The notes under the pieces were generated by a model. It did no database searches, was not told the DNA's origin, and saw only the letters and a program-made list of their open reading frames with translations. From Betaproteobacteria bacterium (GTDB taxonomy: Bacteria; Pseudomonadota; Gammaproteobacteria; Burkholderiales; SG8-39): a stretch of DNA of 64,000 nucleotides. The stretch is from the NCBI GenBank assembly GCA_005881575.1, contig VBCA01000017.1, positions 1 to 64,000 of the forward strand. Reading direction: 5' to 3'. Made by a program: the position numbers and the translations under genes. Position 1 is the stretch's first letter, and each line of letters begins with the position of its first letter. This document shows, one piece after another, positions 6,710-27,156 of the stretch.

Positions 6710-7651
6710 CTAGCGACGCAGCCTGACACAGAACAACAGCGCGAGATTGCGCATCAAGCCCGGCATGAGGATGCCGTGGCGCAGGAGAATCCGCCTTCGG
6801 CCCAACCAATTTCTCCCGGGTAGATTTACGAAGTCCTCGATCAAGGTCCGGTATTCGGGAGCAAGTGAAGCATGGCAGCGCTCGGAGAGAGCCGCCGCCT
6901 GCCGGCGCAGGGCCCCCATATCCCATTGCGCGAATCCGCCCGCGAGGCGACCCAGGAGGGCTTTCAAGCGATAAGGCCGGGCTCCAATCACGTTGCGTGG
7001 GTGTTGGCGATAAGCCACGAGCGGCTCTTCGACGATACCGAGGTGGCCGGCGGCGCCGGCCACCAGTGCAAGCCAGTAGTCGTGCACGAGGGCAGCCCGC
7101 GGTACGGGAAGCGCGAGCTCGATCAGGGCCCGGTTGACAAGGGACGCACATCCGGTAACGGTATTCTTGATCAGCAATCGCGGAAGGCTCGTGCCTCCGG
7201 GATCGAAGCCCGAATAGCGCCAGAACGAAGAATGCCGCTCGCGAAGCGTTTCGTCGACGACGGTGAGATCGCTGTGCACCAGGAGGGGAGTGTCGGGGCC
7301 GTGCTGGCTCTCCAGATCGCGCATCACGCCGAGCAAAGTGCGCAGCTTGTGCGGTACCCACACGTCGTCCTGGTCGCTCAGGGCGGCGTACGGCGCCTTT
7401 GCTTCGCGGAGAAGGCAGGCGAAGTTTCCGACCGCTCCAAGATGGTCCGAGCCGCCGACGCGAATGAAGCGGTCCGGTCTCGTGCGCCTGTAGTGCTCGA
7501 TCACCGCCGGCGTCTCGTCCACCGATCCATCGTCTCGGACCAGGATGCGGAACGCCACGTCCTCCTGGCCGAGTATGGAATCGATCTGGGGCCGGAGATA
7601 GCGCGCTCCATTGTAAGTGGCGAGCAGGACGTCGATGCTTAAAGAGTCCAT
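6710..7651 (-). CDS. Glycosyltransferase family 2 (alpha-1,3-rhamnosyltransferase-like)
   Basis: GT-A fold glycosyltransferase. Motifs are DVLLATYNGARYLRPQIDS at the N-terminus, LVRDDGSVDET (first DDG) and ALSDQDDVW (DxD-type metal site). A hydrophobic patch follows in the C-terminal half. The DQDDVW signature is common in rhamnosyltransferases of rhamnose-containing O-chains, which fits the rmlBACD genes in the same operon. It has 313 residues. It lies 15 bases upstream of the last operon gene and 47 bases downstream of the C-methyltransferase gene. Donor and linkage are inferred, not shown. Confidence 0.86.
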   Translation of the reverse strand: MDSLSIDVLLATYNGARYLRPQIDSILGQEDVAFRILVRDDGSVDETPAVIEHYRRTRPDRFIRVGGSDHLGAVGNFACLLREAKAPYAALSDQDDVWVPHKLRTLLGVMRDLESQHGPDTPLLVHSDLTVVDETLRERHSSFWRYSGFDPGGTSLPRLLIKNTVTGCASLVNRALIELALPVPRAALVHDYWLALVAGAAGHLGIVEEPLVAYRQHPRNVIGARPYRLKALLGRLAGGFAQWDMGALRRQAAALSERCHASLAPEYRTLIEDFVNLPGRNWLGRRRILLRHGILMPGLMRNLALLFCVRLRR

Positions 7652-7698
7652 TTCTGACGGCTCACCGCTCGGCGTAATCAGTGCGTTCTACGATCATC

Positions 7699-8943
7699 TC
7701 AAGGTGAACGGGGCACCACGTCCAGCTTCGGAAGCGGAAATACAAGCGCGGCCTTCTTCGGTTTGTATTTGCGGAGAAAAAACTCCCGAAAGTGCCAGGG
7801 CAGAACCAGGAAAAAATCCGGCTCGTCTCGGAGCAGCTCTTGTTCCGGTCGGATCGGGATCAGCGAGCCCGGCGTGAAGCAGCCGAATTTGTCTTCGTTC
7901 ACTTCCCCGATCGCGTAGAGCTCGCGCTCCGATAAGCCGCAATACTGCAGCAAGACGTTGCCCTTGGTCGAAGCCCCCAGGCCGGCGACGCGCTGGCCGC
8001 TGGCGTTCGCCCGCGAGAAAAAAGAACGCAATTCTTCGCGGCTGGCTGCGGCACGGGCGGCGAACGCCCGGTACGGTTCCGGACCGTCAAGACCGGCTTG
8101 TCTTTCCCTGTCGAGAACTTTCTGCAATCCCCGGAACTCGGGGTAGGTCGAGGAAATCTTCGCGGCCGCCACGGAAAAGCTTCCTCCGTTCATTTCGTTG
8201 AATTCCACGTCCACGATCCGCAGTCCGACGCGATCGGACATCCACTTGACCTGGGCGAGCGCGTAGTACTCCAGGTGCTCGTGGCAAACGGTATCGTAGG
8301 AGTTCCGTTCGAGCATCGACGGCATGTAGCTCTGCTCGAATATCCACAGGCCGTTGTCCTCGAGTATTTCGACCACCTCTCTCATGAACGCGAGCGGGTC
8401 TTCGAGGTCGTAGAACATGGAAAACGAGGTCACGATCCTGGCCTTGCGTCCCCGTGCGGCGTTCATGTAGGTCGCTGCGGAGAAGAACTCCGGAACGACC
8501 GTGACCTTGTCGGGATAGTGCCGGCGGAATTTGTCCGCGGTCGGGTCGATGCCGACGAGGTCGCAGCGCGTCGTGGAATACGCGCGCAAGGTGGTGCCAT
8601 CATTGCTCCCGATGTCCAAAACGACCGGATGTCCGGACAAATCGGCGAGCCCGAGTATTTTCTTGATCTTCCCGCGGAGATGCTCGACCATGCTCTGATT
8701 GAGGCCGGACCGGTACCCGTAGTTGCTCCCGTACATCTCGTCGTGATCGTAGGAATGGGCGAGCTGAAGCAGTCCGCAGCAGGCGGCCTCACCGGTGCAT
8801 TTGACGAGTTTCAACGGCCCTTCGGTCACAGCTTGCTCCCGGGTCGCGGGGAAAACCCCCGTGAGAGCTTGCACACCCAGATCGAGAACCTCGAGGAACT
8901 TGCCGTTTCCGCAGATACGGCACTGCTTCACCGCCCTATGCAC
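7699..8943 (-). CDS. SAM-dependent nucleotide-sugar C-methyltransferase (zinc-ribbon type)
   Basis: Resembles TcaB9/NovU-type enzymes that transfer a methyl group to a carbon of a 4-keto-6-deoxy sugar nucleotide. It has an N-terminal zinc-binding module (CRICGNG, later KCTGEAACCGLLQL). The SAM fold has VVLDIGSNDGTTL, and the C-terminal domain contains GLGASTKGNVLLQYCGL. The frame is open back to 9012, but that would overlap the upstream dehydratase by 77 bases. GTG at 8943 has AAGGGA seven bases upstream and overlaps the dehydratase stop by 8 bases, so it is the likelier start (414 residues). Coupling to the dehydratase points to methylation of its GDP-4-keto-6-deoxy product. That link is inference. 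Confidence 0.88.
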   Translation of the reverse strand: MHRAVKQCRICGNGKFLEVLDLGVQALTGVFPATREQAVTEGPLKLVKCTGEAACCGLLQLAHSYDHDEMYGSNYGYRSGLNQSMVEHLRGKIKKILGLADLSGHPVVLDIGSNDGTTLRAYSTTRCDLVGIDPTADKFRRHYPDKVTVVPEFFSAATYMNAARGRKARIVTSFSMFYDLEDPLAFMREVVEILEDNGLWIFEQSYMPSMLERNSYDTVCHEHLEYYALAQVKWMSDRVGLRIVDVEFNEMNGGSFSVAAAKISSTYPEFRGLQKVLDRERQAGLDGPEPYRAFAARAAASREELRSFFSRANASGQRVAGLGASTKGNVLLQYCGLSERELYAIGEVNEDKFGCFTPGSLIPIRPEQELLRDEPDFFLVLPWHFREFFLRKYKPKKAALVFPLPKLDVVPRSP

Positions 8944-9949
8944 GAGTGCGTCCCTTGGGGGATCGATTTTCGCCCGGAACCGGGTCGGGCGAAAGCGCCT
9001 CGTAGTCGGCATCGACCATCATGTAGACGAGCTCCTCGAAGCCGATCGCGGGCCGCCAGCCCAGCTGCAGGCGAGCCTTTGCGGAGTTGCCGCGCAATTC
9101 GACGGCATCCGCTTCGCGCTCCTGGCGAGGGTCGACCACGACGTGCTTGCGGTAATCGAGGCCCAGACGGTCGAACGCGAGCTCGCACAGTTCTCTCACG
9201 GAATGCGTTTCGCCGCTCGCCAACACGAAGTCGCCGGGCTCGGGCTGCTCGAGCATGAGCCACATCGCATGCACAATGTCTCCGGCAAAGCTCCAGTCTC
9301 TTCGCCCGTCGAGGTTTCCCAGAACCAGAGACTTTTCCAGCCCCGCCTTGATTCGGGCTGCGCTCGAGGTGATTTTGCGCGTCACGTAGTCCAACCCCCG
9401 CCTGGGGCTTTCGTGGTTGAACGGGACGGCCGTGCAGGCGAATAGGCCGTAGCGTTCGCGGTAAGCTTCGACCATGTTCTGGGCCAGCACCTTCGCGGCG
9501 CCATAGGCATTGCGGGGTCGCAAAGGAGTCAGCTCGTCTTGGGGTGACTGCGCAGCCTTGGCGAACACCTCGCTGCTGGAGACCTGGCAGAAGCGCGTCC
9601 GTGCGGATTCGGTCCGTATCGCCTCCAGCATGTGAACGACGGCAAGCCCGTTGATTCGGGTCGTTGCCACGACATCGTCGAAAAGCTGGGCGCTCGATGC
9701 GCGCGCCGCAAGGTTGTAGAGATGATGCGGTTGGTATCGCTTGACCAGTGCGCGAATCGCCTCGCCGTCGGCAAGATCCAGTCCCAGCACCTCGATCTCC
9801 TTTGCCGCGCCAGGCCGGGTCCTTTGCGCGCCGCGATGGGAGGTGCCGATGATTCGATAGCCTTTGGTCGTCAGCAATTCCGCGAGATAGGAGCCGTCCT
9901 GGCCGAGCACGCCTGTGATCAGGGCCGTCTTCGTATCGCGCTCACTCAT
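8936..9949 (-). CDS. GDP-mannose 4,6-dehydratase-like SDR enzyme
   Basis: Extended SDR of the GMD/RMD group. It has ALITGVLGQDGSYLAELL (NAD-binding GxxGxxG), HLYNLAARAS, VSSSEVF, and NAYGAAK (catalytic Tyr-x3-Lys). FNHESPRRG and GNLDGRRDWSFAGD are the hallmark region of GDP-mannose dehydratases. The ATG at 9949 (MSERDTK) overlaps the upstream stop by 8 bases, giving 337 residues, shorter than typical GMD (about 350-370). LASGETHSVREL follows in the substrate domain. It probably converts GDP-mannose from ManC to GDP-4-keto-6-deoxymannose. A 4-reductase-type role cannot be excluded. The next gene encodes a C-methyltransferase. Confidence 0.85.
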   Translation of the reverse strand: MSERDTKTALITGVLGQDGSYLAELLTTKGYRIIGTSHRGAQRTRPGAAKEIEVLGLDLADGEAIRALVKRYQPHHLYNLAARASSAQLFDDVVATTRINGLAVVHMLEAIRTESARTRFCQVSSSEVFAKAAQSPQDELTPLRPRNAYGAAKVLAQNMVEAYRERYGLFACTAVPFNHESPRRGLDYVTRKITSSAARIKAGLEKSLVLGNLDGRRDWSFAGDIVHAMWLMLEQPEPGDFVLASGETHSVRELCELAFDRLGLDYRKHVVVDPRQEREADAVELRGNSAKARLQLGWRPAIGFEELVYMMVDADYEALSPDPVPGENRSPKGRTRA

Positions 9950-10961
9950 GCGGCCGCCCCCAGACATGGTAGCGGCTGTGGCGCAGATCGTAGAGCCCAC
10001 CCTTGCGCGAACGCGCAAACAAAAACCCATAGACGAGCGCCAGCAGATTCAATAACCGCCCGGGCGTAAGCGCCACCAATGCGGGGAGCCAGCTCGAACG
10101 CCCGGACTGCAGCGTGGGGCGGATCGAAGCCTGATACTCCTTCCACGAATACCAGCCCTTGGCGCGCAACAGCAGCAAAGTGCCCAGGCTGCGCCAAGGC
10201 TCGCGTGGAGTGACTTTCGCTCGCGCCGCCTCCGAAATGTGCGAAAACGACCATACGAGCGCCGGCCATGTGAACATCCATACCTTGAAGGAACGAGACG
10301 TCCAGCTTGCGACGCCGTATCGAAGCCTTACCAGGGGCTCGCCGACGGCGAGAACCGTACCGGTCAGGGGCGCCTGGAAGATCACTCCGAAGTGAATGAA
10401 CTCCGTTCCGTAGTAGGGACGTCTTTGTCTCGCCATCCATGCGGCTCGGCGCACGACCGCGCCGCCGATGTATGTCAGATGCTGAGCGCATTCCACGAAC
10501 AGCTTTTCAACGTCACGCGCTCCGTATCGCCGCTCCCCGCTGAACGGCAATCTGCGCTCGATCAGGATTTTACTGAAATCATCCGAGCAGACCTCGACGT
10601 CGACGATCAACACCTCCGGATTCGTCTCGAGCAAGCCGAGGACGCGTTTCACGGCACCGTCGACGAGAAGATCGTCATCGGACAGCGGCCAGCAGTATTC
10701 TCCGCGGGCGAGTTCGACCGCCTTGTCGAAATCGCCGTCGATTCCGGAGTTCGAGGACTGCGGACAATAGCGGATCTGAGGGAAGCGGAGCCGTTCGGCT
10801 TGGACGATTTCGGCCGTGTTGTCGGTAGACGCTCCGTCCACGACCACGACCTCGGTATCTCCAGTCAATTGGCTGCCGATTTGCTCGAGCGCCTCCCCGA
10901 TGAGCTTGGCTCGGTTTCTCGTCGCAATGCAAATCGACAGACGCTTGCCTTGGGGGCTCAT
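9942..10961 (-). CDS. Glycosyltransferase family 2 (abequosyltransferase-like)
   Basis: GT-A enzyme beginning LSICIATRNRAKLIGEALEQ, with VVVDGASTDNT and ARGEYCWPLSDDDLL (metal-binding acidic cluster). Arrangement and motifs are those of the group named abequosyltransferase-like; the real donor is unknown. It is clearly related to the product of the preceding gene (10958-12040), with matching VDGASTD and ARGEYCW blocks, so the two look like a tandem duplication. Its start overlaps the upstream stop by 4 bases and its end overlaps the dehydratase start by 8 bases. 339 residues. The C-terminal end YHVWGRPHE lies in the overlap. Confidence 0.84.
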   Translation of the reverse strand: MSPQGKRLSICIATRNRAKLIGEALEQIGSQLTGDTEVVVVDGASTDNTAEIVQAERLRFPQIRYCPQSSNSGIDGDFDKAVELARGEYCWPLSDDDLLVDGAVKRVLGLLETNPEVLIVDVEVCSDDFSKILIERRLPFSGERRYGARDVEKLFVECAQHLTYIGGAVVRRAAWMARQRRPYYGTEFIHFGVIFQAPLTGTVLAVGEPLVRLRYGVASWTSRSFKVWMFTWPALVWSFSHISEAARAKVTPREPWRSLGTLLLLRAKGWYSWKEYQASIRPTLQSGRSSWLPALVALTPGRLLNLLALVYGFLFARSRKGGLYDLRHSRYHVWGRPHE

Positions 10962-12040
10962 GCATGAGTCCCCTTACCGGGACTGCCCATGCGGCCGGGC
11001 CTCCCCGTTCCGGTGACCGACGGGTCGTCGCGCCTTCGCTGGCGCCACCATGAAAGGAGCCGCCGCGCAGGCGGCTCTAGAAAAGGCGGGAATCCCCAAT
11101 ACAACGCAAGCTTCCACCAGCCGGGCGGACCCGCGTTTCCGTGACATTGCACGAAGAGGCGGTCGAGTTGCGCGCGATTTTCGCGTTCCGGGTCGCTCCG
11201 GCAGGCGGCCTTCGCTCCGATGAAAACCGTGACGGGCAAATCGGCACGTACCAGACGGCGGATCTGCGCGGCTTCCCACTCATCGCGTGCGAACTCTCGC
11301 GCGATGCGCTCGTAGCCGTCCACCGCGAGAGCTAATCGACGCACAATCCCGCGGTCGCGAAAAGAATCATTTTCGCCGCGCCGATTCACCAAGGGCCGAG
11401 GATGGTAGATCACCTCAAGTCGATTGCGGGCGATTTCCAGCAGTCGTGCGACGTGGCCCCAGCCGCTCCGATCGAAGTCATACCGCGCCGGCATCGAGTT
11501 CCACGTCTGGCGGCGCACGACTAGCGTGCTCGCAAAACTGAAGAGGGCTTCGGTGTTGAGGGCTTGGGTTAGCCAGAGACGCCGGGCGTCGCGCTGGCCG
11601 AGGTCTGCCCGCAGCGGCCCGATTGTAGCCAACGCCGGGTGGACCCTGAGGATTTGCATGTCGAGAGTACAGTCCGTGTGGGTCAGCAGATGCACATCGA
11701 CACCGGATTCCAGCGCCGAGAGCACGTACGCGACGCCCCCGGATTGCAGCGTGTCGTCTCCGCTGAAAAGCCAGCAATACTCCCCACGCGCTGCATCGAT
11801 GCAGGAAGCCAGATCGGCGTCGATACCGCCTCGCACGTCGCGGCGCAGATAGCGCACCCGCGGATCCCGTGCGCAGATGTCCCCCATTAGCTCGGGAGTG
11901 CTGTCGGTCGAACCGCCGTCGAAGACGACGATCTCCAACGCGTCGTGCATCTGGGGGAGAATGGATTCGAGCGTGGCCGGCAGGAAAGCGCCAAAATTGT
12001 GGACGGGGATGCAGAACGACAGTACCGGTGCGGCCGTCAT
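10958..12040 (-). CDS. Glycosyltransferase family 2 (paralogue of the next gene)
   Basis: GT-A glycosyltransferase: LSFCIPVHNFGAFLPATLES, VVFDGGSTDST, then ARGEYCWLFSGDDTL. The acidic cluster is SGDD here and SDDD in its neighbour. 360 residues, with an arginine-rich C-terminal tail (RLLSWWRQRRRDD). It starts 4 bases inside the FkbM gene end and ends 4 bases inside the next GT2, so the three are probably translationally coupled. Role: adds one residue of the O-chain or exopolysaccharide repeat; donor unknown. Confidence 0.84.
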   Translation of the reverse strand: MTAAPVLSFCIPVHNFGAFLPATLESILPQMHDALEIVVFDGGSTDSTPELMGDICARDPRVRYLRRDVRGGIDADLASCIDAARGEYCWLFSGDDTLQSGGVAYVLSALESGVDVHLLTHTDCTLDMQILRVHPALATIGPLRADLGQRDARRLWLTQALNTEALFSFASTLVVRRQTWNSMPARYDFDRSGWGHVARLLEIARNRLEVIYHPRPLVNRRGENDSFRDRGIVRRLALAVDGYERIAREFARDEWEAAQIRRLVRADLPVTVFIGAKAACRSDPERENRAQLDRLFVQCHGNAGPPGWWKLALYWGFPPFLEPPARRLLSWWRQRRRDDPSVTGTGRPGRMGSPGKGTHA

Positions 12041-12795
12041 CCGGCCATCCTCCGGTAGGAGCTCTTCGCCGCGAGGTAAAGGCGATACAGTAACGCAAAC
12101 GTGCGCCCGAACGGGTCGTCAGGGAATTTCACCACGCCATCGAATAGGTTCGGCGGCAGCGCGAAATGCTTCAGCAGCGCGTCGCTTTCCCGGCGCACAT
12201 AGAATCGATTGAGACCGTCGTACCAGGCGTGAAGATAGCCGGAGTCGAGAAGGAGAGGCTCGAAGGTTCTCCACACAGGTTCGCGCGTAGCGGTAACCGA
12301 CTCCACGACCACGATCCAGGGTCGGAAACGATGCCAGTTCCCGCTTCTCAGCACCACCGCCTCGTGACCCTCGACGTCGACTTTCATGAAATGGATCTCG
12401 CGATCGGCGACGTGCTGCTCGCACAGTGCAGCCAGCGTAGTGGCCTGGGTCTCGAAGGTTCGCGTTGCGAACCCGTGACGGCGTGCCTCGACCAGCACTG
12501 TGTCGTCGCAGCCCGAGATGCCCGAGCGAGGTGTTTCGTGGAAGCGAACCGGCCCGAGGTGGCTGGAAACGGCGAGATTGAGGTTCAGGTCGCGCGGCCT
12601 GCGCCGCTTCAGCAACGAGAAATACGTGCGGCCCGGTTCGACATTGATTCCGTTCCAGCCCAGCTCGTAAAAGTGACGAGTAACGGAATGGCGATCCGGG
12701 TGCCACGCGCCGATGTCGATATAGAAGCCGCGCTCGACCGATTCCAGCGCCCGGGCAAGCATCACGTCTTCGAAGTTCTGCGCGTAACTAATCAT
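12037..12795 (-). CDS. FkbM family SAM-dependent methyltransferase
   Basis: Class I methyltransferase of the FkbM type, a family that often O-methylates sugars in polysaccharide clusters. It begins MISYAQNFEDVMLARAL, the usual opening of glycan-cluster members. Next come GFYIDIGAWHPDRHSVT (SAM loop), NVEPGRTYF and HFMKVDVEGHEAVVLRSG. The frame extends to 12849, but the ATG at 12795 has GGAG nine bases upstream and matches family starts (252 residues). It lies 22 bases after the flippase stop and overlaps the next GT2 by 4 bases. The target hydroxyl is unknown. Confidence 0.88.
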   Translation of the reverse strand: MISYAQNFEDVMLARALESVERGFYIDIGAWHPDRHSVTRHFYELGWNGINVEPGRTYFSLLKRRRPRDLNLNLAVSSHLGPVRFHETPRSGISGCDDTVLVEARRHGFATRTFETQATTLAALCEQHVADREIHFMKVDVEGHEAVVLRSGNWHRFRPWIVVVESVTATREPVWRTFEPLLLDSGYLHAWYDGLNRFYVRRESDALLKHFALPPNLFDGVVKFPDDPFGRTFALLYRLYLAAKSSYRRMAG

Positions 12796-12817
12796 AGTTG
12801 CTCGCTCCAGACGGGTC

Positions 12818-14323
12818 TCAGAGCGAAGACCTCCACGACCATACGCCAAGCCTTCCTCGCACTCCCGGCGTCAGAGTCAGCGAAATCGCCAAGGCAAGCA
12901 CCAGTAGAACCAGAAGTTCCATCGCCATCCCGAAACCTTCCCGGGACAACGGCATCCACGCCCGGGCTCCGGCGATCAAACAGACAGAAGGCGCCTGACC
13001 CACGAACATATCGCGGTAGAAAAGAACCCAATTGCGCGATCCGAGGCAGAGGCTCCAGGTCAAGGGGAGGCCCGCGATCAGATACAGCCCGTTGAGCGCG
13101 GGCCATACGGACGCTCCCCCCACGATGCCGAAGTGATACGTGAGGAAAACAATGCTCGGCACCATGACGACGCAAAGCACCAGGTTGATGGTGAAGCCGA
13201 TTCTAGTATTGCCACGTGCGAGCTGCAGCGCGTACGGAACAAACATGAGGCCGTTCAGCGCCGTTCCGGTCGCAAGCAGCGCCAACAAGGGCGCGGTGGG
13301 CGCAGCGACCTCCGGGTTACGTGTCCACAGAACCAATACTTCGTATGAGAAAAGGACCAAAAAGACTACGGTAGGAACCAAGATCGCGCCCATCAAGTTG
13401 CTGGCGGACAGAAAGGACGTCCGCAAGCGGGCCTCGTCCCCGGAAGCGACAAGCTCGCACAGCCGCGGATAAACGGCGTTGAATATCGGCAGAATCACGA
13501 CGGACAGGCCGCTGGCAAGCACCTGCGCCATCGCATACAGACCGTACTCCTCTAGGGGGACCAGTTTTGTCAATATCAGCTTGTCCATCTGCGTCAGGAT
13601 GGTCGCGGTAATCGATATGCCCAGCATTCCCGCCGAAAATCGCCATCCGGCGCGTATCACCGCCGTGTCGAACCGCGATCGTTCCCGGAGCGCGGGATCC
13701 GCCCTCCACGCTATCCATCGAATCGTCAACAGCTGAACGAGCGTACCTGCGGCCAGAGAGGCGAAGAAGACGACGATCGTAGGCTTTGCGACCCAAAGTG
13801 CAAGAACAGCGCAGGCGTTGACTATCGTGTACATGCCCGCATTGGCGATACTCAGCCTTACCTGCTGCTGCAGCCCCTGGAGCGTCGCTACGTAAGGGGC
13901 TTGCGCCCAGCGCAGCAAGAACAGCAGCCCCATGAGTCGAACCGCCGTTTCGATTTCACCCTGTGGGACGACGGATGACCTGAGCCAGTGCTCTCCCACA
14001 AAAGGCGCCGCGCTCACTATGGCGACGGCCACAACCAGGCCGATCCCCGCGAACAGGATCTCGAACGTTCGCAGCACGGTCGCGCCGCGCCATGGGGCGT
14101 CGACGGAAGGCAGGTGCCTTGCCATGACCCGCGTCAGGAGAGGGGTGAGCCCCAGGTCGAGGATGGCGAGCACGGCCACGAGGGTTGTGTAGAACCCGAC
14201 GAGGGCAAAAGCGCTCGTCCCGAGCTTCCAGACCAGCAGCGGGGTGACGACAAGCTGGACTGCGGCGATGCAGCCGGTGCTCACCAGATTGGCAACGACG
14301 TTCCGGCGAAATCTCGAAACCAT
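12818..14323 (-). CDS. wzx: Polysaccharide flippase, Wzx-like (MOP superfamily)
   Basis: Integral membrane protein with about 12 to 14 hydrophobic helices that would move lipid-linked repeat units across the inner membrane. It starts MVSRFRRNVVANLVSTG, and the first helix contains CIAAVQLVVTPLLVWKL. Later helices include GAILVPTVVFLVLFSYEVLVLW, and charged loops alternate between them. The open frame extends to 14503 but would overlap rmlD; the ATG at 14323 lies 14 bases after the rmlD stop and gives 501 residues, normal for Wzx. There is no Wzy polymerase or Wzz chain-length regulator in the window. Family assignment is good; substrate is unknown. Confidence 0.85.
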   Translation of the reverse strand: MVSRFRRNVVANLVSTGCIAAVQLVVTPLLVWKLGTSAFALVGFYTTLVAVLAILDLGLTPLLTRVMARHLPSVDAPWRGATVLRTFEILFAGIGLVVAVAIVSAAPFVGEHWLRSSVVPQGEIETAVRLMGLLFLLRWAQAPYVATLQGLQQQVRLSIANAGMYTIVNACAVLALWVAKPTIVVFFASLAAGTLVQLLTIRWIAWRADPALRERSRFDTAVIRAGWRFSAGMLGISITATILTQMDKLILTKLVPLEEYGLYAMAQVLASGLSVVILPIFNAVYPRLCELVASGDEARLRTSFLSASNLMGAILVPTVVFLVLFSYEVLVLWTRNPEVAAPTAPLLALLATGTALNGLMFVPYALQLARGNTRIGFTINLVLCVVMVPSIVFLTYHFGIVGGASVWPALNGLYLIAGLPLTWSLCLGSRNWVLFYRDMFVGQAPSVCLIAGARAWMPLSREGFGMAMELLVLLVLALAISLTLTPGVRGRLGVWSWRSSL

Positions 14324-14337
14324 AAGCCGCAGATTCT

Positions 14338-15201
14338 CTAAGGCGCGCCCGAGATTTTTCTGAGACCGACTTCCCACGTCGGCAGGGTAACGCCGAGGCG
14401 CCGAAACAGCTTCTCGTTGGACAGACGCGAGTTCTTGGGCCTTCGTGCGGGCGTTGGATACTCGCTCGATGCAATCGGCACGACTCGGACCCGAAATTCG
14501 CACCTTTCCAGGCGTACCAATTCCGTCGCAAATCCGTACCAGGACGTGGATCCGGAGGACGTGGCGTGATAAGTCCCCCGCGCGTCGCCCAGCCCGGCGG
14601 CGCCGTGGCGACGGAGAAGTTCGGCGGTCGCCTGCGCGAGGTCGCCGGCCGTGGTCGGTGCCCCGATCTGATCGGATACGATGCGCAGTTCATCTTTCTC
14701 CCGGAGCAGACGCCGTACGGTGAGGAGGAAGTTCTTGCCCCGCGTCGAGTACACCCAGCTCGTGCGCAGTATCAAATGAGCGCCGCCGATGTCGTGAATC
14801 GCCTGCTCTCCGGCGAGCTTGCTGCGGCCGTAGGCGTTGATGGGATTGGGGTGGTCCTCCTCGATATACGGGGCATCCTTCGTTCCGTCGAAGACGTAAT
14901 CGGTCGAATAGTGGACGAACAGGGCTCCGACCCGTTTCGCCTCTTCGGCCAGGACGGCGACTGCGGCGGCATTGACGGCGTAGGCGGCGTCCGGCTCGCT
15001 TTCCGCGCGGTCGACGGCCGTATAAGCCGCGGCATTGATGAGCACTTCGGGCCGCACCGAGCGAACGACCGAGACGATCTGGTCTGGAACTGCGAGGTCG
15101 AGATCTTCGCGGTCAAGGGCGATGACTTCGCCGAGCGGTGCGAGCGCATGCGCGAGCTCCCAGCCGACCTGCCCGCTCCTTCCGGTCAGCAGAATCTTCA
15201 C
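14338..15201 (-). CDS. rmlD: dTDP-4-dehydrorhamnose reductase
   Basis: Last step of dTDP-L-rhamnose synthesis: NAD(P)H reduction of dTDP-4-keto-rhamnose. Starts [20 protein letters not shown] with the Rossmann loop. It continues NAAAYTAVDRAES (family signature), STDYVFDG, NAYGRSKLAGE (Tyr-x3-Lys) and LRTSWVYS. GTG at 15201 overlaps the rmlC stop by 4 bases (GTGA), giving 287 residues; the longer frame to 15282 is inside rmlC. The C-terminal region RPKNSRLSNEKL is typical. Confidence 0.95.
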   Translation of the reverse strand: MKILLTGRSGQVGWELAHALAPLGEVIALDREDLDLAVPDQIVSVVRSVRPEVLINAAAYTAVDRAESEPDAAYAVNAAAVAVLAEEAKRVGALFVHYSTDYVFDGTKDAPYIEEDHPNPINAYGRSKLAGEQAIHDIGGAHLILRTSWVYSTRGKNFLLTVRRLLREKDELRIVSDQIGAPTTAGDLAQATAELLRRHGAAGLGDARGTYHATSSGSTSWYGFATELVRLERCEFRVRVVPIASSEYPTPARRPKNSRLSNEKLFRRLGVTLPTWEVGLRKISGAP

Positions 15202-15743
15202 TGAAACACTTCGGCATCCCGCAGCCGCGTCCCCGCGGCGTCTTTGGCCGATAGTGCGGGAGCGCCGCCGGGGATGGGCCAATCGACGTGGAGTTCCGGA
15301 TCGTTCCAGAGGATGCAGCGCTCGTCCTCGGGCGCGTAGAACTCCGTGGCCTTATACAGGACCTCGGCAAAGTCGCTCAGCACGCAAAAGCCGTGCGCGA
15401 AACCGACCGGGATCCACAGCATCTTGTGCGATTCCGCATTCAGGTGAACGCCCTCCCAGCGGCCAAAAGTGGGTGAGCTGCGGCGGATGTCCGCCGCCAC
15501 ATCGAAGATCTCGCCGGCGACGACCCGGATGAGTTTGCCTTGCGGCCGGCGGATCTGATAATGCAGCCCCCGCAGCACGCCTCGTCCCGAGCGCGAGTGA
15601 TTGTCCTGGACGAAACGGGCACGGATTCCTATACGCTCGAACTCCCGTTCGTTCCAGCTCTCGAAGAAGAATCCGCGCGAATCGCCGAATACGCGGGGCT
15701 CGATGAGCAACACTCCAGGAAGGCCGGTCAGCGTAACCTTCAT
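15198..15743 (-). CDS. rmlC: dTDP-4-dehydrorhamnose 3,5-epimerase
   Basis: Cupin-fold epimerase converting dTDP-4-keto-6-deoxyglucose to the L-rhamno form. Motifs are [37 protein letters not shown] (catalytic His region), [22 protein letters not shown] and [16 protein letters not shown]. 181 residues, normal. It overlaps rmlA and rmlD by 4 bases on each side, so the four rml genes form one coupled block. Confidence 0.96.
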
Positions 15744-16621
15744 TTGTCGTGCGGGCCGCCTCGCAGCAGCGACAGCAGGTAGGTCCCGTAACCGCTATTC
15801 CTGAGTGGCGCCGCCAGCGCCTCGAGCTTCGCGTCGTCGATCCACTTCTTGTTCCAGGCGATCTCTTCGGGGCAGCCGATCTTCAGACCCTGCCTCCGCT
15901 CGAGCGTCTCGATGAAGTGGCTCGCCTCGAGCAGCGATTCGTAGGTGCCGGTGTCGAGCCACGCGTGCCCCCGTCCCAGCGTTTCCACGTGAAGCATGCC
16001 CTCTACGAGGTAATGGCGATTGACGTCGCTGATCTCCAGTTCCCCACGCGCCGAAGGCTTGAGCGATTTCGCGATGCGCACGACCTGGTTGTCGTAGAAA
16101 TAGAGCCCCGTCACTGCGTAGTGCGACTTGGGCTTCGCCGGCTTTTCCTCGATGCTGATGGCGCGGCCTCTCACATCGAGCTCGACCACGCCGTAGCGCT
16201 GCGGGTCCTGCACCCGGTAGGCGAACACCGTCGCACCCGAGGATTTCTTCGCTGCTTGCCCGAATGTGGGTTGCAAGTCGTGGCCGTAGAAGATATTGTC
16301 CCCGAGCACCAACGCGCAGGGCTCGGTGCCGATGAACTTCTCGCCGACGAGGAACGCCTGGGCGATGCCCTTCGGCTCCGGCTGTATCTTGTAGCTGAAG
16401 CTCACGCCCCAGGAGGCGCCGCTGCCGAGAAGCCTTTCGAAGCGCGGCGTGTCATCCGGAGTGGAAATGACGAGGATGTCGCGGATATCGGCGAGCATCA
16501 GCGTGCTCAAGGGGTAATAGATCATCGGCTTGTCGTAGACGGGCAGGAGCTGTTTGGAAACGACCTGCGTCACTGGGAAGAGGCGCGTGCCGCTGCCTCC
16601 GGCGAGGATGATGCCCTTCAC
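15740..16621 (-). CDS. rmlA: Glucose-1-phosphate thymidylyltransferase
   Basis: First enzyme of the dTDP-rhamnose pathway: dTTP + glucose-1-phosphate to dTDP-glucose. It starts [17 protein letters not shown] after a GTG at 16621 that overlaps the rmlB stop (GTGA). Then follow [48 protein letters not shown] and [16 protein letters not shown]. 293 residues, standard. The frame upstream of 16621 is open only because it runs inside rmlB. Confidence 0.96.
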
Positions 16622-22047: not shown

Positions 22048-22431
22048 ATGCATGTATCCCAAGAGCGTTACGGCGACACGCTGGTGCTCACCCCTATCGG
22101 GCGAGTCGACAACAGCACGACCGACCGGTTGAAATCCGGGCTCGACGCCTATATAGCCAGCTCCCGAGCAGGGGGAAATCGCCTGGTCTTGGATTTTTCG
22201 AAGGTGGACTACATTAGCAGCGTCGGGTTGCGCGTCTTGATGCTGGCGGGCAAGGAAATCCGTGAGCAGGGAGGCTCGATCGTGGTAGCGGCGCTCCAGC
22301 CTGTGGTGCGCGAAATCTTCGAGATCAGCCGCTTCAATCTTGTCTTCCAGTGTTTTGGGTCGGTTCGCGAAGCTCTGACCAAGGTTTCGCCGACAGCCCT
22401 GGCGGCCTATGACTCCGCCCATGGCACTTGA
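22048..22431 (+). CDS. STAS-domain anti-sigma factor antagonist (RsbV/SpoIIAA-like)
   Basis: Small single-domain STAS protein, predicted to bind or release an anti-sigma kinase according to its phosphorylation. It has VLTPIGRVDNSTTDRLKSGL, LVLDFSKVDYISSVGLRVLM (Ser57/Ser58 at the usual phospho-acceptor loop) and GGSIVVAALQPVVREIFEIS. The frame is open from 22015, but the ATG at 22048 fits the domain start better; a run of seven G lies 12 bases upstream of it, rather far for a ribosome site. 127 residues. It is followed after 3 bases by an MBL hydrolase and then by a PP2C phosphatase; the matching kinase gene is at 26728. Roles are inferred from family and context. Confidence 0.88.
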   Translation: MHVSQERYGDTLVLTPIGRVDNSTTDRLKSGLDAYIASSRAGGNRLVLDFSKVDYISSVGLRVLMLAGKEIREQGGSIVVAALQPVVREIFEISRFNLVFQCFGSVREALTKVSPTALAAYDSAHGT

Positions 22432-22434
22432 CCG

Positions 22435-23400
22435 ATGGCACTGTGGGTCACGTTCTGGGGAACGCGCGGCTCCATCCCCGTCTCCCTGGACTCCGCGTCG
22501 GTCAGGGACAAGCTCGCCCAGGCGATAGTCGCGGCTTCGGGTGAGCGTCTCGACACGCAAGAAAAGGCGCGGGCTTGGGTCGACTCAGAGCTTGATTTCG
22601 CCGTCTCGCACACTTTCGGAGGCAATTCCGCCTGCGTGCAGCTCGATGCGGGTGAGGACGAGCATGTATTGTGCGATCTCGGGAGCGGCGTACGCGCCTT
22701 CGGAAACCATGTAATCACCCGTGACGGTCCCGCCAAGACCAACGTCTTCCACGTGTTCCAGTCCCACCTTCACTGGGACCACATCATGGGCTTCCCCTTT
22801 TTCGCCCCCGCCTACATCCCTGGGAACAGGATTCTGATTTACGGCTGTCACACCAATCTCGAAGAAGCGCTTCGTCGCCAACAGGACCCGCCCTGTTTCC
22901 CTGTGCCGTTTGATCGCCTAGGAGCGTCGGTAGAGTTCGTCACACTCCAGCCTGGCCGGAGCTACGAGGTCGCCGGATGGAGCGTGACCGCCAAGCTGCA
23001 GAGCCATTCCGGAGATTCCTACGGGTATCGATTCGTCCGTGACGGCCGGATCATCGTCTATTCGACCGACTCCGAGCACAGGCTGGACGTCCCGGATGCG
23101 GTCGAAGGCGCCGCAACTTTCTTTGCGGACGCCGACTTGGTGATTTTCGACGCCATGTACTCGCTCGCGGAAGCTGTGTCGGTGAAGGAGGACTGGGGAC
23201 ACTCGAGCAACGTGGTTGGGGTCGAGTTGTGCCAGCTTGCCCATGTGAAACACCTGGTGCTTTTCCACCACGAACCGGCCAACAACGATGAGCGCATCGC
23301 CCAGATTTGGCGAGAAACCCTGCGTTACGAAGAAATCTCGCGTACGGGTGAAGCGCTTCGCATCTCGGTCGCCTACGACGGCCTGGAGATCGAGCTCTGA
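22435..23400 (+). CDS. MBL-fold metallo-hydrolase
   Basis: Metallo-beta-lactamase-fold hydrolase opening with WVTFWGTRGSIPVS, a subgroup near cyclic-phosphate phosphodiesterases such as PhnP. The metal motif SHLHWDHIMGF (His111, His113, Asp115, His116) is intact, with later ligand candidates in QSHSGDSYGYRF, YSTDSEH and FHHEP. About 45 residues separate GTRGSIPV from FGGNSACVQL, a longer link than in the simplest relatives. 321 residues. It is packed 3 bases after the STAS gene and 83 bases before the phosphatase gene, so probably one transcript. The substrate is unknown; a cyclic nucleotide or phosphodiester messenger is an inference. Confidence 0.85.
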   Translation: MALWVTFWGTRGSIPVSLDSASVRDKLAQAIVAASGERLDTQEKARAWVDSELDFAVSHTFGGNSACVQLDAGEDEHVLCDLGSGVRAFGNHVITRDGPAKTNVFHVFQSHLHWDHIMGFPFFAPAYIPGNRILIYGCHTNLEEALRRQQDPPCFPVPFDRLGASVEFVTLQPGRSYEVAGWSVTAKLQSHSGDSYGYRFVRDGRIIVYSTDSEHRLDVPDAVEGAATFFADADLVIFDAMYSLAEAVSVKEDWGHSSNVVGVELCQLAHVKHLVLFHHEPANNDERIAQIWRETLRYEEISRTGEALRISVAYDGLEIEL

Positions 23401-23483
23401 GGAGCAAATCCTTACCGGATGCCGGGGACGTCGGCCCGTACTCCGGATCGGAGTTGGTCGCCCGGGCAAATCCTCTCGGGACG

Positions 23484-25559
23484 ATGTTCAATTCACGCGG
23501 GGTTGGTCACGGTGTGGCGCTGCTTGCGCTGCTCCTGGTGCCGATTCTGTGGCAGGACATGCCCATCGTCGGTGCAACGCGCCTTGCGTGGCTCGACGGC
23601 TATCAGGAACTGTCTCCGCGCGAGAGGCGCTCGGCGCCTGCAGTCATCGTCGCCATCGACGAGGTGAGTCTGGACCGATTCGGTCAATGGCCATGGCCGC
23701 GCACATTGGTCGCACAGCTCATCGATAAACTGGGTGCAGCCCGCCCTGCGGCAATCGGGGTAGACATACTGTTTCCTGAGCCCGACCGCCTTTCCCCCGA
23801 ATGGCTTGCACCATCGGTGGCCGAAGTCGATCCGCGATTGGCGGCGCGTCTCGCAATGCTGCCGCGCCACGATGCGGTACTGGCCGCGTCGATCAAAGCT
23901 GCTCCCGTAGCACTGGGCATTGCAGGGCTAGAGGCCGGCAAGCCTTCCGAGGTTGCCCCGCTGACTCCATCTCTGCAAAGAGGATCCGACGCGCGAGCGG
24001 CTCTGCGCCACTATGCTTCTACGCTTCGCAGTCTCCCGGAAATCGACACGGCCGCGAGAGGACACGGACTACTCAGCGCCGATACCGAGGCGGGCGTGGT
24101 CCGGCGCGTGCCGCTCGTCGCGCTTGTCGGGGTGACCCCAGTGCTACCTTTGAGCCTAGAGACTCTTCGTTTGGCGAGTGGCGAACCGCTCTTCTTCGTG
24201 CAAGGCGGCGTGGCCGGGGTTGAAGCCGTGGGAATCGGCGACTTGGTCGTCCCCACTCAATCTGACGGACGCCTGTGGGTCCACTACACCCCACACGATG
24301 CAAGTCGCTTCGTCTCGGCGGCGGATGTGCTCGGCGACAAGGCAGACCCCGCTCAACTCGAGGGCAAGCTCGTGCTCGTCGGCGTCACCGGGCTTGGTCT
24401 GATCGATTACCAGTCCACGCCGCTTGGCGAGCGCATGCCCGGGATCGAGATTCATGCGCAGGTCCTTGAGAACGTTTTTGACGGCGCACTGTTGGTGCGC
24501 CCGCGCTGGGCAACCTGGGTCGAAGGATTGGCCCTTTTCGTCATGGGGTTGGTGGTCGTGTGTTCCGTGCCTCGACTCTCGCCGGGACGTTCGACGGTCC
24601 TGCTCCTTTTATCACTGATAACGCTGGGTGCGGCTGGCTTCGGCGCATACCGGGTGGCGGGGCTGCTGCTCGACGCTTCGGTTCCCGGCGCCGCGATCGT
24701 CTTCCTGTTCGCTGCGATGCTTGTCGAGACGCTCGCGGAGGCCAACGCGCAGAAAAAATTGCTGCAGGAGCGCCTGCAACGCGAACGCGAGTCTGCCGCT
24801 CGGCTCGCCGGTGAGCTTGACGCGGCGCGACGCATCCAGATCGGTAGTCTCCCGCGGCCCGAGTCGGCGTTCCCTTCAGAACATCGCTTCGAGATTTCTG
24901 CAGCCATGGAGCCGGCGCGCGAAGTAGGAGGGGATCTATACGATTTCTTCATGCTCGATGCCGAGCACTTATTCTTTCTCGTAGGCGATGTATCCGGGAA
25001 GGGCTTGCCTGCCAGTATCTTCATGGCGGTCAGCAAAGCTCTGTGCAAAAGCACTGCCCTTCGACGCGGGCGTCGGGTCGATGAATTGCTACATGAGGCC
25101 AACGCGGAAATTGCGCGGGAGAATCCCGAGTTCTTGTTCGTAACCGTTTTTGCCGGCGTGCTCGACGTTCTGAGCGGTCGCCTGGAGTATTGCAGCGCCG
25201 GACATGAACCGCCTTTCGTTCTGGCTGCCGATGGCGAGATCGCCAGGCTTGAGGAGGGCGGCGGGCCGCCGTTATGCGTGCTCGAAGAATTTTCCTACGT
25301 TGCCGCCGAGCACGAGATGAGCCGAGGAGGAATTGTATGTGTTGTATCCGACGGGGTAACCGAAGCAATGAATCCGGCGGGGGAGCTTTACGGTGCCGTC
25401 CGGTTGCGCGAGGCACTCGAGCGCGGCCGGAACACTGAAAATCCCGCAGCCCTCGTCAATGCGATCCGTGCGGATATCTCGCAATTTGTCGACGGAGCGG
25501 AAGCTGCAGACGACCTGACGCTCCTGGTGCTGCGCTGGAACGGGCCTAGCGCACGTTGA
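23484..25559 (+). CDS. CHASE2 sensor fused to PP2C (SpoIIE-type) serine phosphatase
   Basis: Membrane phosphatase, predicted to dephosphorylate the STAS partner when its periplasmic domain senses a signal. A TM helix (about 9-22, GVALLALLLVPILW) precedes a CHASE2 domain (about 35-325; VIVAIDEVSLDRFGQWPWPR, IGVDILF, LVGVTGLGLID). Three TM helices follow (about 343-420), then a coiled coil (about 420-452). The phosphatase domain has EVGGDLYDFF, GDVSGKGLPASIFM, SDGVTEAMN and ADDLTLLVLR, so all metal aspartates are present. The open frame allows a TTG at 23454, but ATG at 23484 has CGGGA just upstream (691 residues). The 3' end overlaps the convergent OmpA-like gene by 14 bases. Confidence 0.92.
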   Translation: MFNSRGVGHGVALLALLLVPILWQDMPIVGATRLAWLDGYQELSPRERRSAPAVIVAIDEVSLDRFGQWPWPRTLVAQLIDKLGAARPAAIGVDILFPEPDRLSPEWLAPSVAEVDPRLAARLAMLPRHDAVLAASIKAAPVALGIAGLEAGKPSEVAPLTPSLQRGSDARAALRHYASTLRSLPEIDTAARGHGLLSADTEAGVVRRVPLVALVGVTPVLPLSLETLRLASGEPLFFVQGGVAGVEAVGIGDLVVPTQSDGRLWVHYTPHDASRFVSAADVLGDKADPAQLEGKLVLVGVTGLGLIDYQSTPLGERMPGIEIHAQVLENVFDGALLVRPRWATWVEGLALFVMGLVVVCSVPRLSPGRSTVLLLLSLITLGAAGFGAYRVAGLLLDASVPGAAIVFLFAAMLVETLAEANAQKKLLQERLQRERESAARLAGELDAARRIQIGSLPRPESAFPSEHRFEISAAMEPAREVGGDLYDFFMLDAEHLFFLVGDVSGKGLPASIFMAVSKALCKSTALRRGRRVDELLHEANAEIARENPEFLFVTVFAGVLDVLSGRLEYCSAGHEPPFVLAADGEIARLEEGGGPPLCVLEEFSYVAAEHEMSRGGIVCVVSDGVTEAMNPAGELYGAVRLREALERGRNTENPAALVNAIRADISQFVDGAEAADDLTLLVLRWNGPSAR

Positions 25560-26139
25560 TTTCGACTCGCCGATTCCGCGGCTCGGAAACCCCTTCGACT
25601 GCGGGGATCAAAGGCTCGCGCCTGCCGCGGCCAGCGGTCAGGATCCGCTCAGCCGGAATACCCATTCCGGCCAGGATCGACTTAACGCGCTCGGCCCGCT
25701 GAAGAGAAAGCGCATCATTGGAAGGGTCCGGGCCGACCAGATCGGTATGGCCAATGACGGTAATGTCCGGCGCCTCCCTGCGCGCCATCTCCGCGAGCAA
25801 ACGCCTGACTTCCTGCTTCGATTCCTCGGTAAATTCGTCGTTGCCACTCTCGAAGTAGAGGATAAAGGAGATCGGGCGCGACGGCTGGGCTGCGAGTGCG
25901 CTGCCAAAAACCTCCTTTACCTCGCTCTGGCTTGCAATGCCGCGCTGCATACCGCCTTCGGGCGTCGTCCGGGCGGCGGCGTACGCGGTATTGAGCACAG
26001 CCTTACCCTTCTGGCCTTGGACAACGACTGTTCCGACTTTGCCCTCCTTGTCCGGCAAAAGCACGATCAAGTCTTGGCTCGGTGTGGCGCAGCTCCCCAG
26101 GACCCATGACGCGATCAGCGCAGCGCAGTGCCGGCGCAT
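25546..26139 (-). CDS. OmpA-like peptidoglycan-binding lipoprotein
   Basis: Short lipoprotein. The signal peptide is MRRHCAALIASWVLGSC with a lipobox-like LGSC (Cys17). A non-conserved linker follows, then a C-terminal OmpA/MotB domain (about 95-197): FILYFESGNDEFTEES, ITVIGHTDLVGPDPSNDALS, QRAERVKSIL and RRVEINVR. It likely anchors to the outer membrane and binds peptidoglycan. It sits 16 bases after the FecR-domain gene with AAGG before the ATG, so the two are one small operon. It runs opposite to the phosphatase gene, with a 14-base tail overlap. Link to CHASE2 sensing is inference from position. Confidence 0.88.
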   Translation of the reverse strand: MRRHCAALIASWVLGSCATPSQDLIVLLPDKEGKVGTVVVQGQKGKAVLNTAYAAARTTPEGGMQRGIASQSEVKEVFGSALAAQPSRPISFILYFESGNDEFTEESKQEVRRLLAEMARREAPDITVIGHTDLVGPDPSNDALSLQRAERVKSILAGMGIPAERILTAGRGRREPLIPAVEGVSEPRNRRVEINVR

Positions 26140-26155
26140 GAAGTGCCTTAGGGCC

Positions 26156-26611
26156 TTAGTCGCTGGAGCGAACGAGGAACTCGGTTCCGCGCACCCCGAG
26201 TATCGAAGAAGGAGTCTTCACTTTCATTGCATCGGGAGACTGCTTGGCTATTTTTCCAGACACCACCGAAAGAGTTCCCCTGCGGAGAGAGGATTCGAAA
26301 GCACCTTCGTGCGTAGTCGAGTTGAACGCGTATCGCTCGATGGCTAGCACGCTGTTGGGGCCGACTGACAAAAGCGAATTGTCCACGAAGGCGATACCGG
26401 CCGATCCGTCCGCCCCGGTCACCACGGTGTCGGTTGCCTGCAGATGCGTTCCTACGCGTGCCGGGATGCGCTGGCCGCTGCGCTCGAGATACACAGAACC
26501 CCTGGCGACTCTGAACTGCGCTATATCACTACCCCAGCTTGCGATCGGCACAATGCTGCACGCGCAAACAACGAGAAACCGACGAATGACGATCAAACGA
26601 GTCGATTGCAT
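26156..26611 (-). CDS. Secreted FecR-domain protein
   Basis: Signal peptide (about 1-28, RFLVVCACSIVPIASWGS) followed almost entirely by one FecR domain. It has GSVYLERSGQRIPARVGTHL, DTVVTGADGSAGIAFVDNSL, SVGPNSVLAIERYAF, RRGTLSVVSGKI and VKTPSSILGVRGTEF. It ends two or three residues after this domain. Unlike classical FecR anti-sigma regulators it has no cytoplasmic N-terminal part, so it is a periplasmic FecR module. ATG at 26611 has GGGGGG five bases upstream, giving 151 residues. First gene of a two-gene minus operon with the OmpA-like lipoprotein, divergent from the kinase gene. Confidence 0.88.
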   Translation of the reverse strand: MQSTRLIVIRRFLVVCACSIVPIASWGSDIAQFRVARGSVYLERSGQRIPARVGTHLQATDTVVTGADGSAGIAFVDNSLLSVGPNSVLAIERYAFNSTTHEGAFESSLRRGTLSVVSGKIAKQSPDAMKVKTPSSILGVRGTEFLVRSSD

Positions 26612-26687
26612 TACAACCCCCCAATAATTGGCCTGCCTTTGCAACTGCGGAGGTGGCCAGCGCCTGCGAGGCCGCTTTGTTCCTATC

Positions 26688-26693
26688 TATAAT
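26688..26693 (+). promoter_or_regulatory. Possible -10 element (TATAAT) of the anti-sigma kinase gene
   Basis: TATAAT lies 34 bases upstream of the ATG at 26728 in the 116-base divergent gap. No clear -35. Confidence 0.35.
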
Positions 26694-26727
26694 AGCTTAA
26701 ACAGCCTTTTCCCGGCTCATCCCGTCG

Positions 26728-27156
26728 ATGGCTAACGCCCCGCTTGCCCGGTTCCCGGCCAGGATGGACTCCATGGTCGAAATCCGAACCTTTGTTGAGG
26801 ACGCGTGTACCACCGCCGGGATAGGCCGGGAAGACTGCCTGAAGGTCCTCCTTATCGTCGAGGAACTATTCACGAATACGGTCACCCACGGCTATTGCGA
26901 AGAGAGCGAATCCCCGGTGTGGATCGCATTTGATCCCCGTGACACGGGATTTATTTTGCGCTATGAGGACGCGGCCCCGCCGCACAATCCGTTCGGCGAA
27001 TTTCGTCCCATGGATACGGGCGTCCTCGTTGCTCAGCAACCGGTGGGCGGTCTCGGCTTGAAATTGATCAGGTCGCTCGCGAGGGACGCGAGCTACAGCC
27101 GAGAAGGCGAGCGCAACTGTATCCGGCTTACGTTCGCCACAAGTCCGAGCGATTGA
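26728..27156 (+). CDS. Anti-sigma-factor-type serine kinase (RsbW-like HATPase)
   Basis: GHKL ATPase of the RsbW/SpoIIAB group, expected to phosphorylate the STAS protein and to sequester a sigma factor or other partner. The N box VEELFTNTVTHGY has Glu45/Glu46 and Asn50. EDAAPPHNPF supplies the G1-like region and VGGLGLKLIRSL the G2 lid, so it appears catalytically complete. 142 residues, typical. It stands 4.3 kb from its presumed substrate gene, with the FecR/OmpA pair between. No sigma factor gene is present in the window, so the output is unknown. Confidence 0.88.
   Translation: MANAPLARFPARMDSMVEIRTFVEDACTTAGIGREDCLKVLLIVEELFTNTVTHGYCEESESPVWIAFDPRDTGFILRYEDAAPPHNPFGEFRPMDTGVLVAQQPVGGLGLKLIRSLARDASYSREGERNCIRLTFATSPSD

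Follow-up and report, generated by a model that had tools for sequence, protein, structure and literature searches.

A conserved partner-switching gene cassette with a CHASE2 phosphatase, two envelope proteins and a metallo-β-lactamase-fold enzyme as candidate output

Introduction

Partner switches are best known for their control of sigma factors. The SiaABCD system of Pseudomonas aeruginosa consists of a PP2C phosphatase, a kinase, a STAS-type protein and an enzyme (as outlined in a section of PMC9239204); its genes are co-transcribed (PMC7278518), and the enzyme, SiaD, is bound and activated by SiaC (PMC8457831). CHASE2 sensors have been linked in print to FecR proteins for histidine kinases, as in the Burkholderia BiofilmReg operon, which comprises a response regulator, a LysM-FecR protein, a CHASE2 histidine kinase and DUF4136; the same source, in the part cited, described CHASE2 stimuli as unknown in 2016 (PMC5192318). 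In Campylobacterota, CHASE2 adenylate cyclase clusters were reported to include a phosphodiesterase, a FecR outer membrane protein and a TPR protein (passage in PMC9239204). Here we describe a six-gene cassette at positions 22048-27156 of the 64,000-nucleotide stretch of DNA analysed (the window; Betaproteobacteria bacterium, assembly GCA_005881575.1, contig VBCA01000017.1), in which a complete RsbU/V/W-type gene set, namely a SpoIIE-type PP2C phosphatase, a STAS protein with a phosphorylatable Ser and a GHKL serine kinase, is encoded together with a metallo-β-lactamase (MBL)-fold hydrolase, an OmpA-like protein and a FecR-domain protein, the phosphatase carrying a CHASE2 sensor. The conserved cassette is real, and no description of this gene set was found in open-licence PubMed Central papers. 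We read it, with a confidence barely above even, as an envelope-sensing partner switch with an enzyme, the MBL protein, as its output.

Results and Discussion

Conservation and co-inheritance of the six genes

A sample of 300 genomes of the order was searched with the phosphatase, an MBL profile and a kinase profile. The MBL subfamily was found in 26 genomes and was set off by a clear gap (E 2.8e-156 to 1.2e-60, about 95 orders of magnitude), and the CHASE2-PP2C phosphatase was found in 25, all of them among these 26 (split over contigs in G100 and G241, and containing one TGA in G103). The coincidence of the two genes gave a Fisher p of 1.3e-35, a value that overstates independence because the genomes are related. 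The cassette kinase was present in 24 of the 25 phosphatase genomes, in 23 at 7e-40 or better and in G157 as a contig-truncated gene, and was lacking in the fragmented genome G052. The next best kinase of the sample (3.7e-30) belonged to G248, the sole genome with the MBL gene and without the phosphatase, where the kinase adjoins a close STAS gene (3.3e-40) at C1:814769-815555 and a cassette-type MBL gene lies on another contig (C3:51569-52510). In a sample of the phylum, the MBL subfamily was found in 3 of 398 genomes, the window's own included, and in 15 of 398 at the looser threshold of 1e-50.

The gene order was likewise conserved. Of 24 neighbourhoods from the order, 21 agreed with the window in the order and strands of all six genes (a contig end truncating the G157 kinase). 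In G052, G100 and G241, the cassette is interrupted by contig ends, and the genes that remain lie where expected. A wider set of named loci was drawn from the best 80 of 578 confirmed MBL relatives, and variants were judged among these only. Six genes were found at 50 of these loci, 14 loci reach a contig end and 16 differ despite room. All but one of the 50 complete loci follow the window order, the second half being inverted in L136; the phosphatase match is partial in L132 and L154, and the best stretches of L115 and the best OmpA stretch of L140 are short. In L087 and L138, more than 1.5 kb separates the phosphatase gene from the OmpA gene. The records are titled beta-, gamma- and alphaproteobacteria, with a few others; titles on contigs of metagenome-assembled genomes (MAGs), such as Klebsiella pneumoniae, Verrucomicrobia and Rokuibacteriota, are given as printed and are unreliable as taxonomy. 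Several Duganella, Noviherbaspirillum denitrificans TSA40, Chitinimonas viridis CECT 7703 and Panacagrimonas perspica DSM 26377 are among the cultured strains whose records contain the complete cassette. Six contigs (identical MBL) belong both to the 25 loci fetched and to the 80 named ones and are thus counted twice in the totals over 102, 106 or 108 loci given below.

In L124, L141 and L152, the STAS, MBL and phosphatase genes stand at one locus and FecR-kinase (L177) or FecR-OmpA-kinase (L184, L180) at a second; genes retained in a genome after such a separation are probably functionally linked. Downstream of the L141 cassette (L141:13035-16955), phage-tail-like sheath and tube proteins were noticed by eye. 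That the arrangement reflects chance or the mere synteny of unrelated genes is scarcely credible: we found no point in favour of it, and order and strands are constant at 31-65% identity to the window proteins while the flanks differ, the split halves are retained in the same genome, and the genes are present and absent jointly. These observations support with high confidence that the cassette is one functional unit. The initial annotation had grouped the six families at 22048-27156; all six frames were open, all matches exceeded the Pfam cut-offs on which the assignments rest, and the families proved to be conserved neighbours, not rarely adjacent ones.

An all-against-all comparison of open frames of at least 90 amino acids (pairs below 70% identity, 106 loci) revealed no conserved seventh gene, each extra-gene group being assessed by eye on a single representative and genes below 90 amino acids lying outside the scan. 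The largest such group occurred at 13 of the 106 loci, about half of them in Duganella relatives. Crotonase-like (11), ABC transporter (10) and thiC (5) groups were rejected as cassette members, being lineage synteny or common families. Divergence correlations were positive for all 15 gene pairs (0.66-0.79; 68 complete loci cut to 56 at 93% MBL identity), a pattern for which common descent accounts in good part.

The switch genes

The roles of the conserved residues of STAS proteins, switch kinases and PP2C phosphatases are known from SpoIIAA, RsbV, SpoIIAB and PP2C. The STAS protein, of the anti-anti-sigma type (22048..22431, + strand, 127 amino acids; PF01740 5.6e-16, TIGR00377 over its cut-off), carries the motif Y-I-S-S-V-G-L-R, of which Ser57 and Ser58 were invariant among 20 aligned sequences, the window included here as in the alignments that follow. 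The RsbW/SpoIIAB-type serine kinase (26728..27156, + strand, 142 amino acids) matched HATPase_c_2 (PF13581, 8.1e-23) and the RsbW structure 6m36 of the PDB (1.2e-10), and its residues E45, E46, N50, G55, D81, G107, G108 and G110, including the N and G boxes, were invariant in 21 sequences. The membrane phosphatase (23484..25559, + strand) combines CHASE2 (PF05226, 1.3e-50) and SpoIIE-type PP2C (PF07228, 5.6e-46) in a single protein of 691 amino acids from the ATG, or 701 if the TTG at 23454 is used, and its motifs GGDxYD, DVxGKG, DGxxE and DDxT were invariant in 17 phosphatases. The claim that all three switch proteins keep their catalytic motifs was thus borne out.

The link between the STAS and MBL genes

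The MBL-fold hydrolase of the phosphodiesterase/RNase Z clade (22435..23400, + strand, 321 amino acids; PF12706 8.2e-16) is encoded 3 nucleotides (nt) behind the STAS gene. A STAS gene was found at 76 of the 80 named MBL loci, upstream and on the same strand in 74. Where the two genes are separate, the MBL start lies -4 to 20 nt from the STAS stop in 83 of 99 pairs, 34 of these 83 overlapping by 4 or 1 nt. At three of 102 loci (L114, L139 and L151), STAS and MBL form one open frame; in the L114 fusion, the domain boundary contains none of the start codons ATG, GTG and TTG, and CHASE2-PP2C, OmpA and FecR come after the fused gene. When a model of a fused chain was compared with known folds, its STAS part resembled TM1442 (Z 18.7 over 107 residues), and the remainder resembled YhfI and RNase Z (Z about 23). 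These fusions, the close spacing and the joint absence of MBL with STAS and kinase described below make the MBL protein the candidate output of the cassette. The initial annotation had proposed an envelope-to-switch module whose output was unknown; the module held as a conserved unit, and its output now has a candidate. We put that assignment at about one chance in two, with control by the STAS protein as an inferred step.

Several observations weigh against it. In L139 and L151, the MBL start still has a Met, from which a separate MBL protein could be made, and all three fusions were found in MAG records only. The model of the L151 fusion consists of two folded domains and a low-confidence linker (predicted template modelling score, pTM, 0.64) and thus defines no STAS-MBL contact. 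The partial divergence correlation was lower for STAS-MBL (0.23) than for STAS-PP2C (0.32). The MBL gene stands without STAS at the loci L119, L131 and L149, and no STAS gene was found within 3.3 kb upstream in L125; STAS and kinase lie together elsewhere in the L131 genome (L183), as does a kinase in that of L119 (L181). No kinase was detected at 1e-8 in the genomes of L149 and of the STAS-MBL locus L155. Moreover, the fused L114 and L126 lack a kinase at the usual place, the only kinase of their genomes being part of a distant fusion with PP2C, whose neighbours are STAS and an apparent extracytoplasmic function (ECF) sigma factor, and L092 is similar.

A different partner switch, in which a fused PP2C-kinase gene is followed by STAS and then by an apparent ECF sigma factor (assigned by eye), was seen at L185, L227 and L228. 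A response regulator whose HD domain is of the HD-GYP type (HD_5) is encoded a few kb or less from each of the L139 and L151 fusions, which makes a link to cyclic di-GMP possible; the L151 regulator had been considered as a PP2C, a candidate rejected because Pfam shows HD-GYP.

Nature of the MBL enzyme

The residues of the MBL motif HxHxDH (H111, H113, D115 and H116), together with H191, D212 and H279, were invariant among 20 aligned sequences. The folds nearest to the MBL model (mean predicted local distance difference test score, pLDDT, 81) were BA1088, RNase Z and YhfI, followed by PhnP and yeast PDE1, and a profile search of PDB sequences agreed with these fold neighbours. The signature SHLHWDH of the window protein fits [T/S]HxHxDH, and PF12706 enzymes with the latter have been termed atypical class-II phosphodiesterases (passage in PMC9293780); for one of them, YhfI, the substrates of preference are given as cyclic AMP and cyclic GMP (passage in PMC9117128). 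The MBL protein scored 47.9 bits against the cut-off of 400 of NF041851, an NCBIfam equivalog for a cyclic-nucleotide enzyme, which does not support membership of that family, a like function being possible. The protein would be a phosphodiesterase-type hydrolase, for which RNA or another phosphodiester is as open a substrate as a cyclic nucleotide. In one genome, a module-like kinase adjoins a different, class-II-phosphodiesterase-like MBL gene (L178), and the STAS-MBL pair of the same genome (L094) stands without other cassette genes at its locus.

Such an enzyme might also act upstream of the switch or in feedback, with the PP2C, the kinase or the STAS domain as the sensor of a small molecule that it makes or destroys. 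Some STAS domains bind nucleotides. By fold, the MBL protein of the cassette groups with nucleotide phosphodiesterases (passages in PMC9293780 and PMC9117128). The fusions, however, favour direct coupling of MBL to STAS, though they are compatible with feedback too, and we consider a feedback role quite improbable.

Apparent sensing and switching halves of the cassette

The hydropathy profile of the phosphatase showed a hydrophobic N-terminus and three segments after CHASE2 (about 344-362, 370-388 and 400-418), with weaker segments within CHASE2, which by the usual topology would place CHASE2 in the periplasm. The OmpA-like peptidoglycan-binding protein (25546..26139, - strand, 197 amino acids; PF00691 1e-17) is encoded convergently with the phosphatase, the genes overlapping by 14 bp. 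Its description as a lipoprotein held for the window protein, which has an apparent lipobox (LGSC) with its Cys, and not for the family at large, as this Cys is missing in at least five aligned orthologues. Those of L060, L061, L062, L063 and L065 have no lipoprotein Cys and a hydrophobic N-terminus, which suggests that they may be anchored in the inner membrane and that the side of the anchor would thus vary by lineage. The FecR-domain protein (26156..26644, - strand, 162 amino acids from a TTG, the true start possibly lying further in) has a short FecR domain (PF04773, 2.8e-13) as its sole domain behind a hydrophobic N-terminus and is probably secreted. Its gene is divergent from that of the kinase, an intergenic region of 83 bp (26645..26727) lying between them. 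That OmpA and FecR are encoded on the strand opposite to the other four genes had not been mentioned in the initial annotation.

In L045, L046, L047 and L048, CHASE2-cyclase genes of the order likewise have FecR as a neighbour, and OmpA was seen in L045 and L046 as well as beside L205. When 41 CHASE2 domains were placed in a tree (about every second of the 56 loci plus the window, only matches spanning the sensor; 29 PP2C rows), the PP2C-linked sensors clustered apart from the other cyclases, and two other rows nested within the PP2C-linked clade with starred support, namely the cyclase-bearing L045 and L044, which lacks an output domain. Both retain FecR and OmpA. In their genomes (G190 and G255), the cassette MBL and kinase were absent from the order-wide search lists, and the best STAS matches were 1.3e-10 and 1.4e-7, respectively, whereas two genomes with the cassette gave 1.6e-50 and 3.2e-56. 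In these two cases, PP2C, STAS, kinase and MBL are thus missing jointly, FecR, OmpA and CHASE2 being retained, which indicates that MBL belongs with the switch and not with the sensor.

The converse was observed at L137 and L145, which keep MBL, kinase and STAS and where FecR and OmpA were not seen at the locus; the PP2C near L137 has a weak, sub-threshold Cache match in place of CHASE2. Both cores lie, as judged by eye, beside amino-acid ABC transporter-like genes, and their switch may respond to a solute rather than to the envelope. More generally, none of the genomes with an odd MBL locus, ten in all (nine from the named loci, plus G248), has a full-length CHASE2-PP2C; their matches span the sensor half or the phosphatase half only. 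Since the cyclase and no-output cases keep FecR and OmpA, and MBL, STAS and kinase occur elsewhere without CHASE2-PP2C, the cassette seems to consist of two halves, one for sensing (FecR, OmpA and CHASE2) and one for switch plus output (PP2C, STAS, kinase and MBL). This partition gives CHASE2 two defined and testable envelope partners. We tentatively extend it to a portable FecR-OmpA-CHASE2 sensor with exchangeable outputs, either a cyclase making a cyclic nucleotide or a partner-switched class-II-type phosphodiesterase destroying one, a proposal that is possible but speculative; if true, it would tie the state of the cell wall to second-messenger breakdown.

The genome of the window contains a second CHASE2 signalling locus (L049, C46:22000-41000), which encodes at 7875-16336 a CHASE2-Ser/Thr kinase, a PP2C, an FHA protein, a CHASE2-cyclase, an MBL protein with a class-II phosphodiesterase match and a rhodanese protein of the type binding cyclic nucleoside monophosphates.

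Sigma factors and other unlinked targets

The main rival to an MBL output is an unlinked sigma factor. In such a classical anti-sigma arrangement, the kinase would hold a sigma factor encoded elsewhere (RpoS, RpoE or another ECF type), the unphosphorylated STAS protein would release it, and MBL would be an accessory. Structures matched by the kinase profile include RsbW/SpoIIAB, and those matched by the STAS profile TM1442/SpoIIAA. The genome of the window offers 12 Sigma70_r2 matches, among which RpoS, RpoH, RpoE and further ECF types exceed curated cut-offs. Furthermore, partner switches without a linked sigma gene have been reported (passage in PMC3999984), and a chlamydial partner switch is stated to target the housekeeping sigma factor (passage in PMC8256260). 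On the other hand, a sigma-like frame was found near only 3 of 106 loci, all in Duganella-type records, in agreement with the earlier remark that no sigma factor lies nearby. None of the 11 sigma factors of the window's genome that were scanned (L193 left out) reached a SigB, SigF or SigG cut-off, and for its sigma factor L202 no match was obtained at 1e-25. No convincing promoter motif was shared by 57 STAS upstream regions, the best dyad occurring in 8 as against 6-7 shuffled, or by the FecR/kinase gaps (54 of the 57 loci being long enough), and a consensus scan of promoters found no promoter-like site. The gap dyad TCAT-N6-CTCC (8 as against at most 6 shuffled) was rejected as the FecR start codon and ribosome site. 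An anti-sigma role would also leave the STAS-MBL fusions unexplained, and we regard it as fairly unlikely.

Alternatively, STAS or kinase could act on a third, non-sigma protein, as with BtrV or SypA, while MBL modulates the pathway. Outputs of this kind have been described (passage in PMC8256260), and MBL persists alone in some genomes; no candidate gene is conserved beside the cassette, however, and MBL is absent in both genomes whose sensor has another output or none. A third protein as target thus appears unlikely.

Proposed mechanism

For the preferred reading of MBL as output, we infer the direction of each step as follows. FecR and OmpA, the latter anchored to a membrane and likely also to peptidoglycan, would pass the state of the envelope to periplasmic CHASE2, which would switch the cytoplasmic PP2C domain on or off. 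Judging from their families, the RsbW-type kinase would phosphorylate the STAS protein and PP2C would take the phosphate off. By analogy with the control of SiaD by SiaC in Pseudomonas, the STAS protein would bind the neighbouring MBL enzyme and gate it according to its phosphorylation state and to whether it is free or kinase-bound. Such gating fits the fusions, the close spacing, the lack of a conserved sigma factor or other gene and the joint absence of MBL with PP2C. If the enzyme is a class-II-type phosphodiesterase gated in this way, no other partner switch known to us controls a metal-dependent phosphodiesterase. A conserved cassette that brings an enzyme of its own and an envelope sensor but no linked sigma factor would illustrate how this kind of switch can be coupled to metabolism or to second messengers. 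The STAS-MBL fusions that occur in nature are a ready object for biochemistry.

Comparison with known systems

The MBL protein resembles the atypical class-II phosphodiesterases YhfI, Rv1339 and CpdA of C. glutamicum in its PF12706 domain, signature and fold, and differs from them in its low identity (about 15-20% to YhfI in fold alignments) and in being tied to a STAS switch. At the sensing end, the cassette shares with the CHASE2-cyclase clusters a FecR gene adjoining CHASE2, and OmpA too in L045 and L046, whereas the output of those clusters is a cyclase in the same chain, the cassette MBL and kinase being absent from the L045 genome. With the BiofilmReg operon it shares the pairing of CHASE2 with a predicted peptidoglycan-binding FecR protein, but BiofilmReg has a histidine kinase/response regulator output and LysM where the cassette has OmpA. 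Unlike that of the FecI/FecR anti-sigma system, the cassette FecR has no conserved ECF sigma neighbour.

The stressosome (RsbR/RsbS/RsbT) differs from the cassette, which has one single-domain STAS protein and no second conserved gene of this kind. A separate stressosome-like locus of the window's genome (L050, C62:16000-33000) encodes at 5392-9206 a protoglobin-STAS protein (RsbR-like), STAS, a small PP2C (RsbX-like), an RsbU_N-histidine kinase and HATPase_c_2.

The core of the cassette is in good agreement with RsbU-RsbV-RsbW and SpoIIE-SpoIIAA-SpoIIAB in its SpoIIE-family PP2C, its STAS protein with a conserved Ser and its RsbW-type kinase, all with intact motifs. It is distinguished from them by the membrane CHASE2 input, the two envelope proteins and the MBL gene beside STAS, and from sigB/sigF-type switches by the lack of a conserved linked sigma factor. 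To our knowledge, SiaA has no CHASE2, FecR or OmpA partner. SiaABCD is nonetheless similar in combining a PP2C, a kinase and a STAS-type protein with an enzyme gene beside STAS, the enzyme being a diguanylate cyclase (GGDEF) in SiaABCD and a PF12706 MBL protein in the cassette described here.

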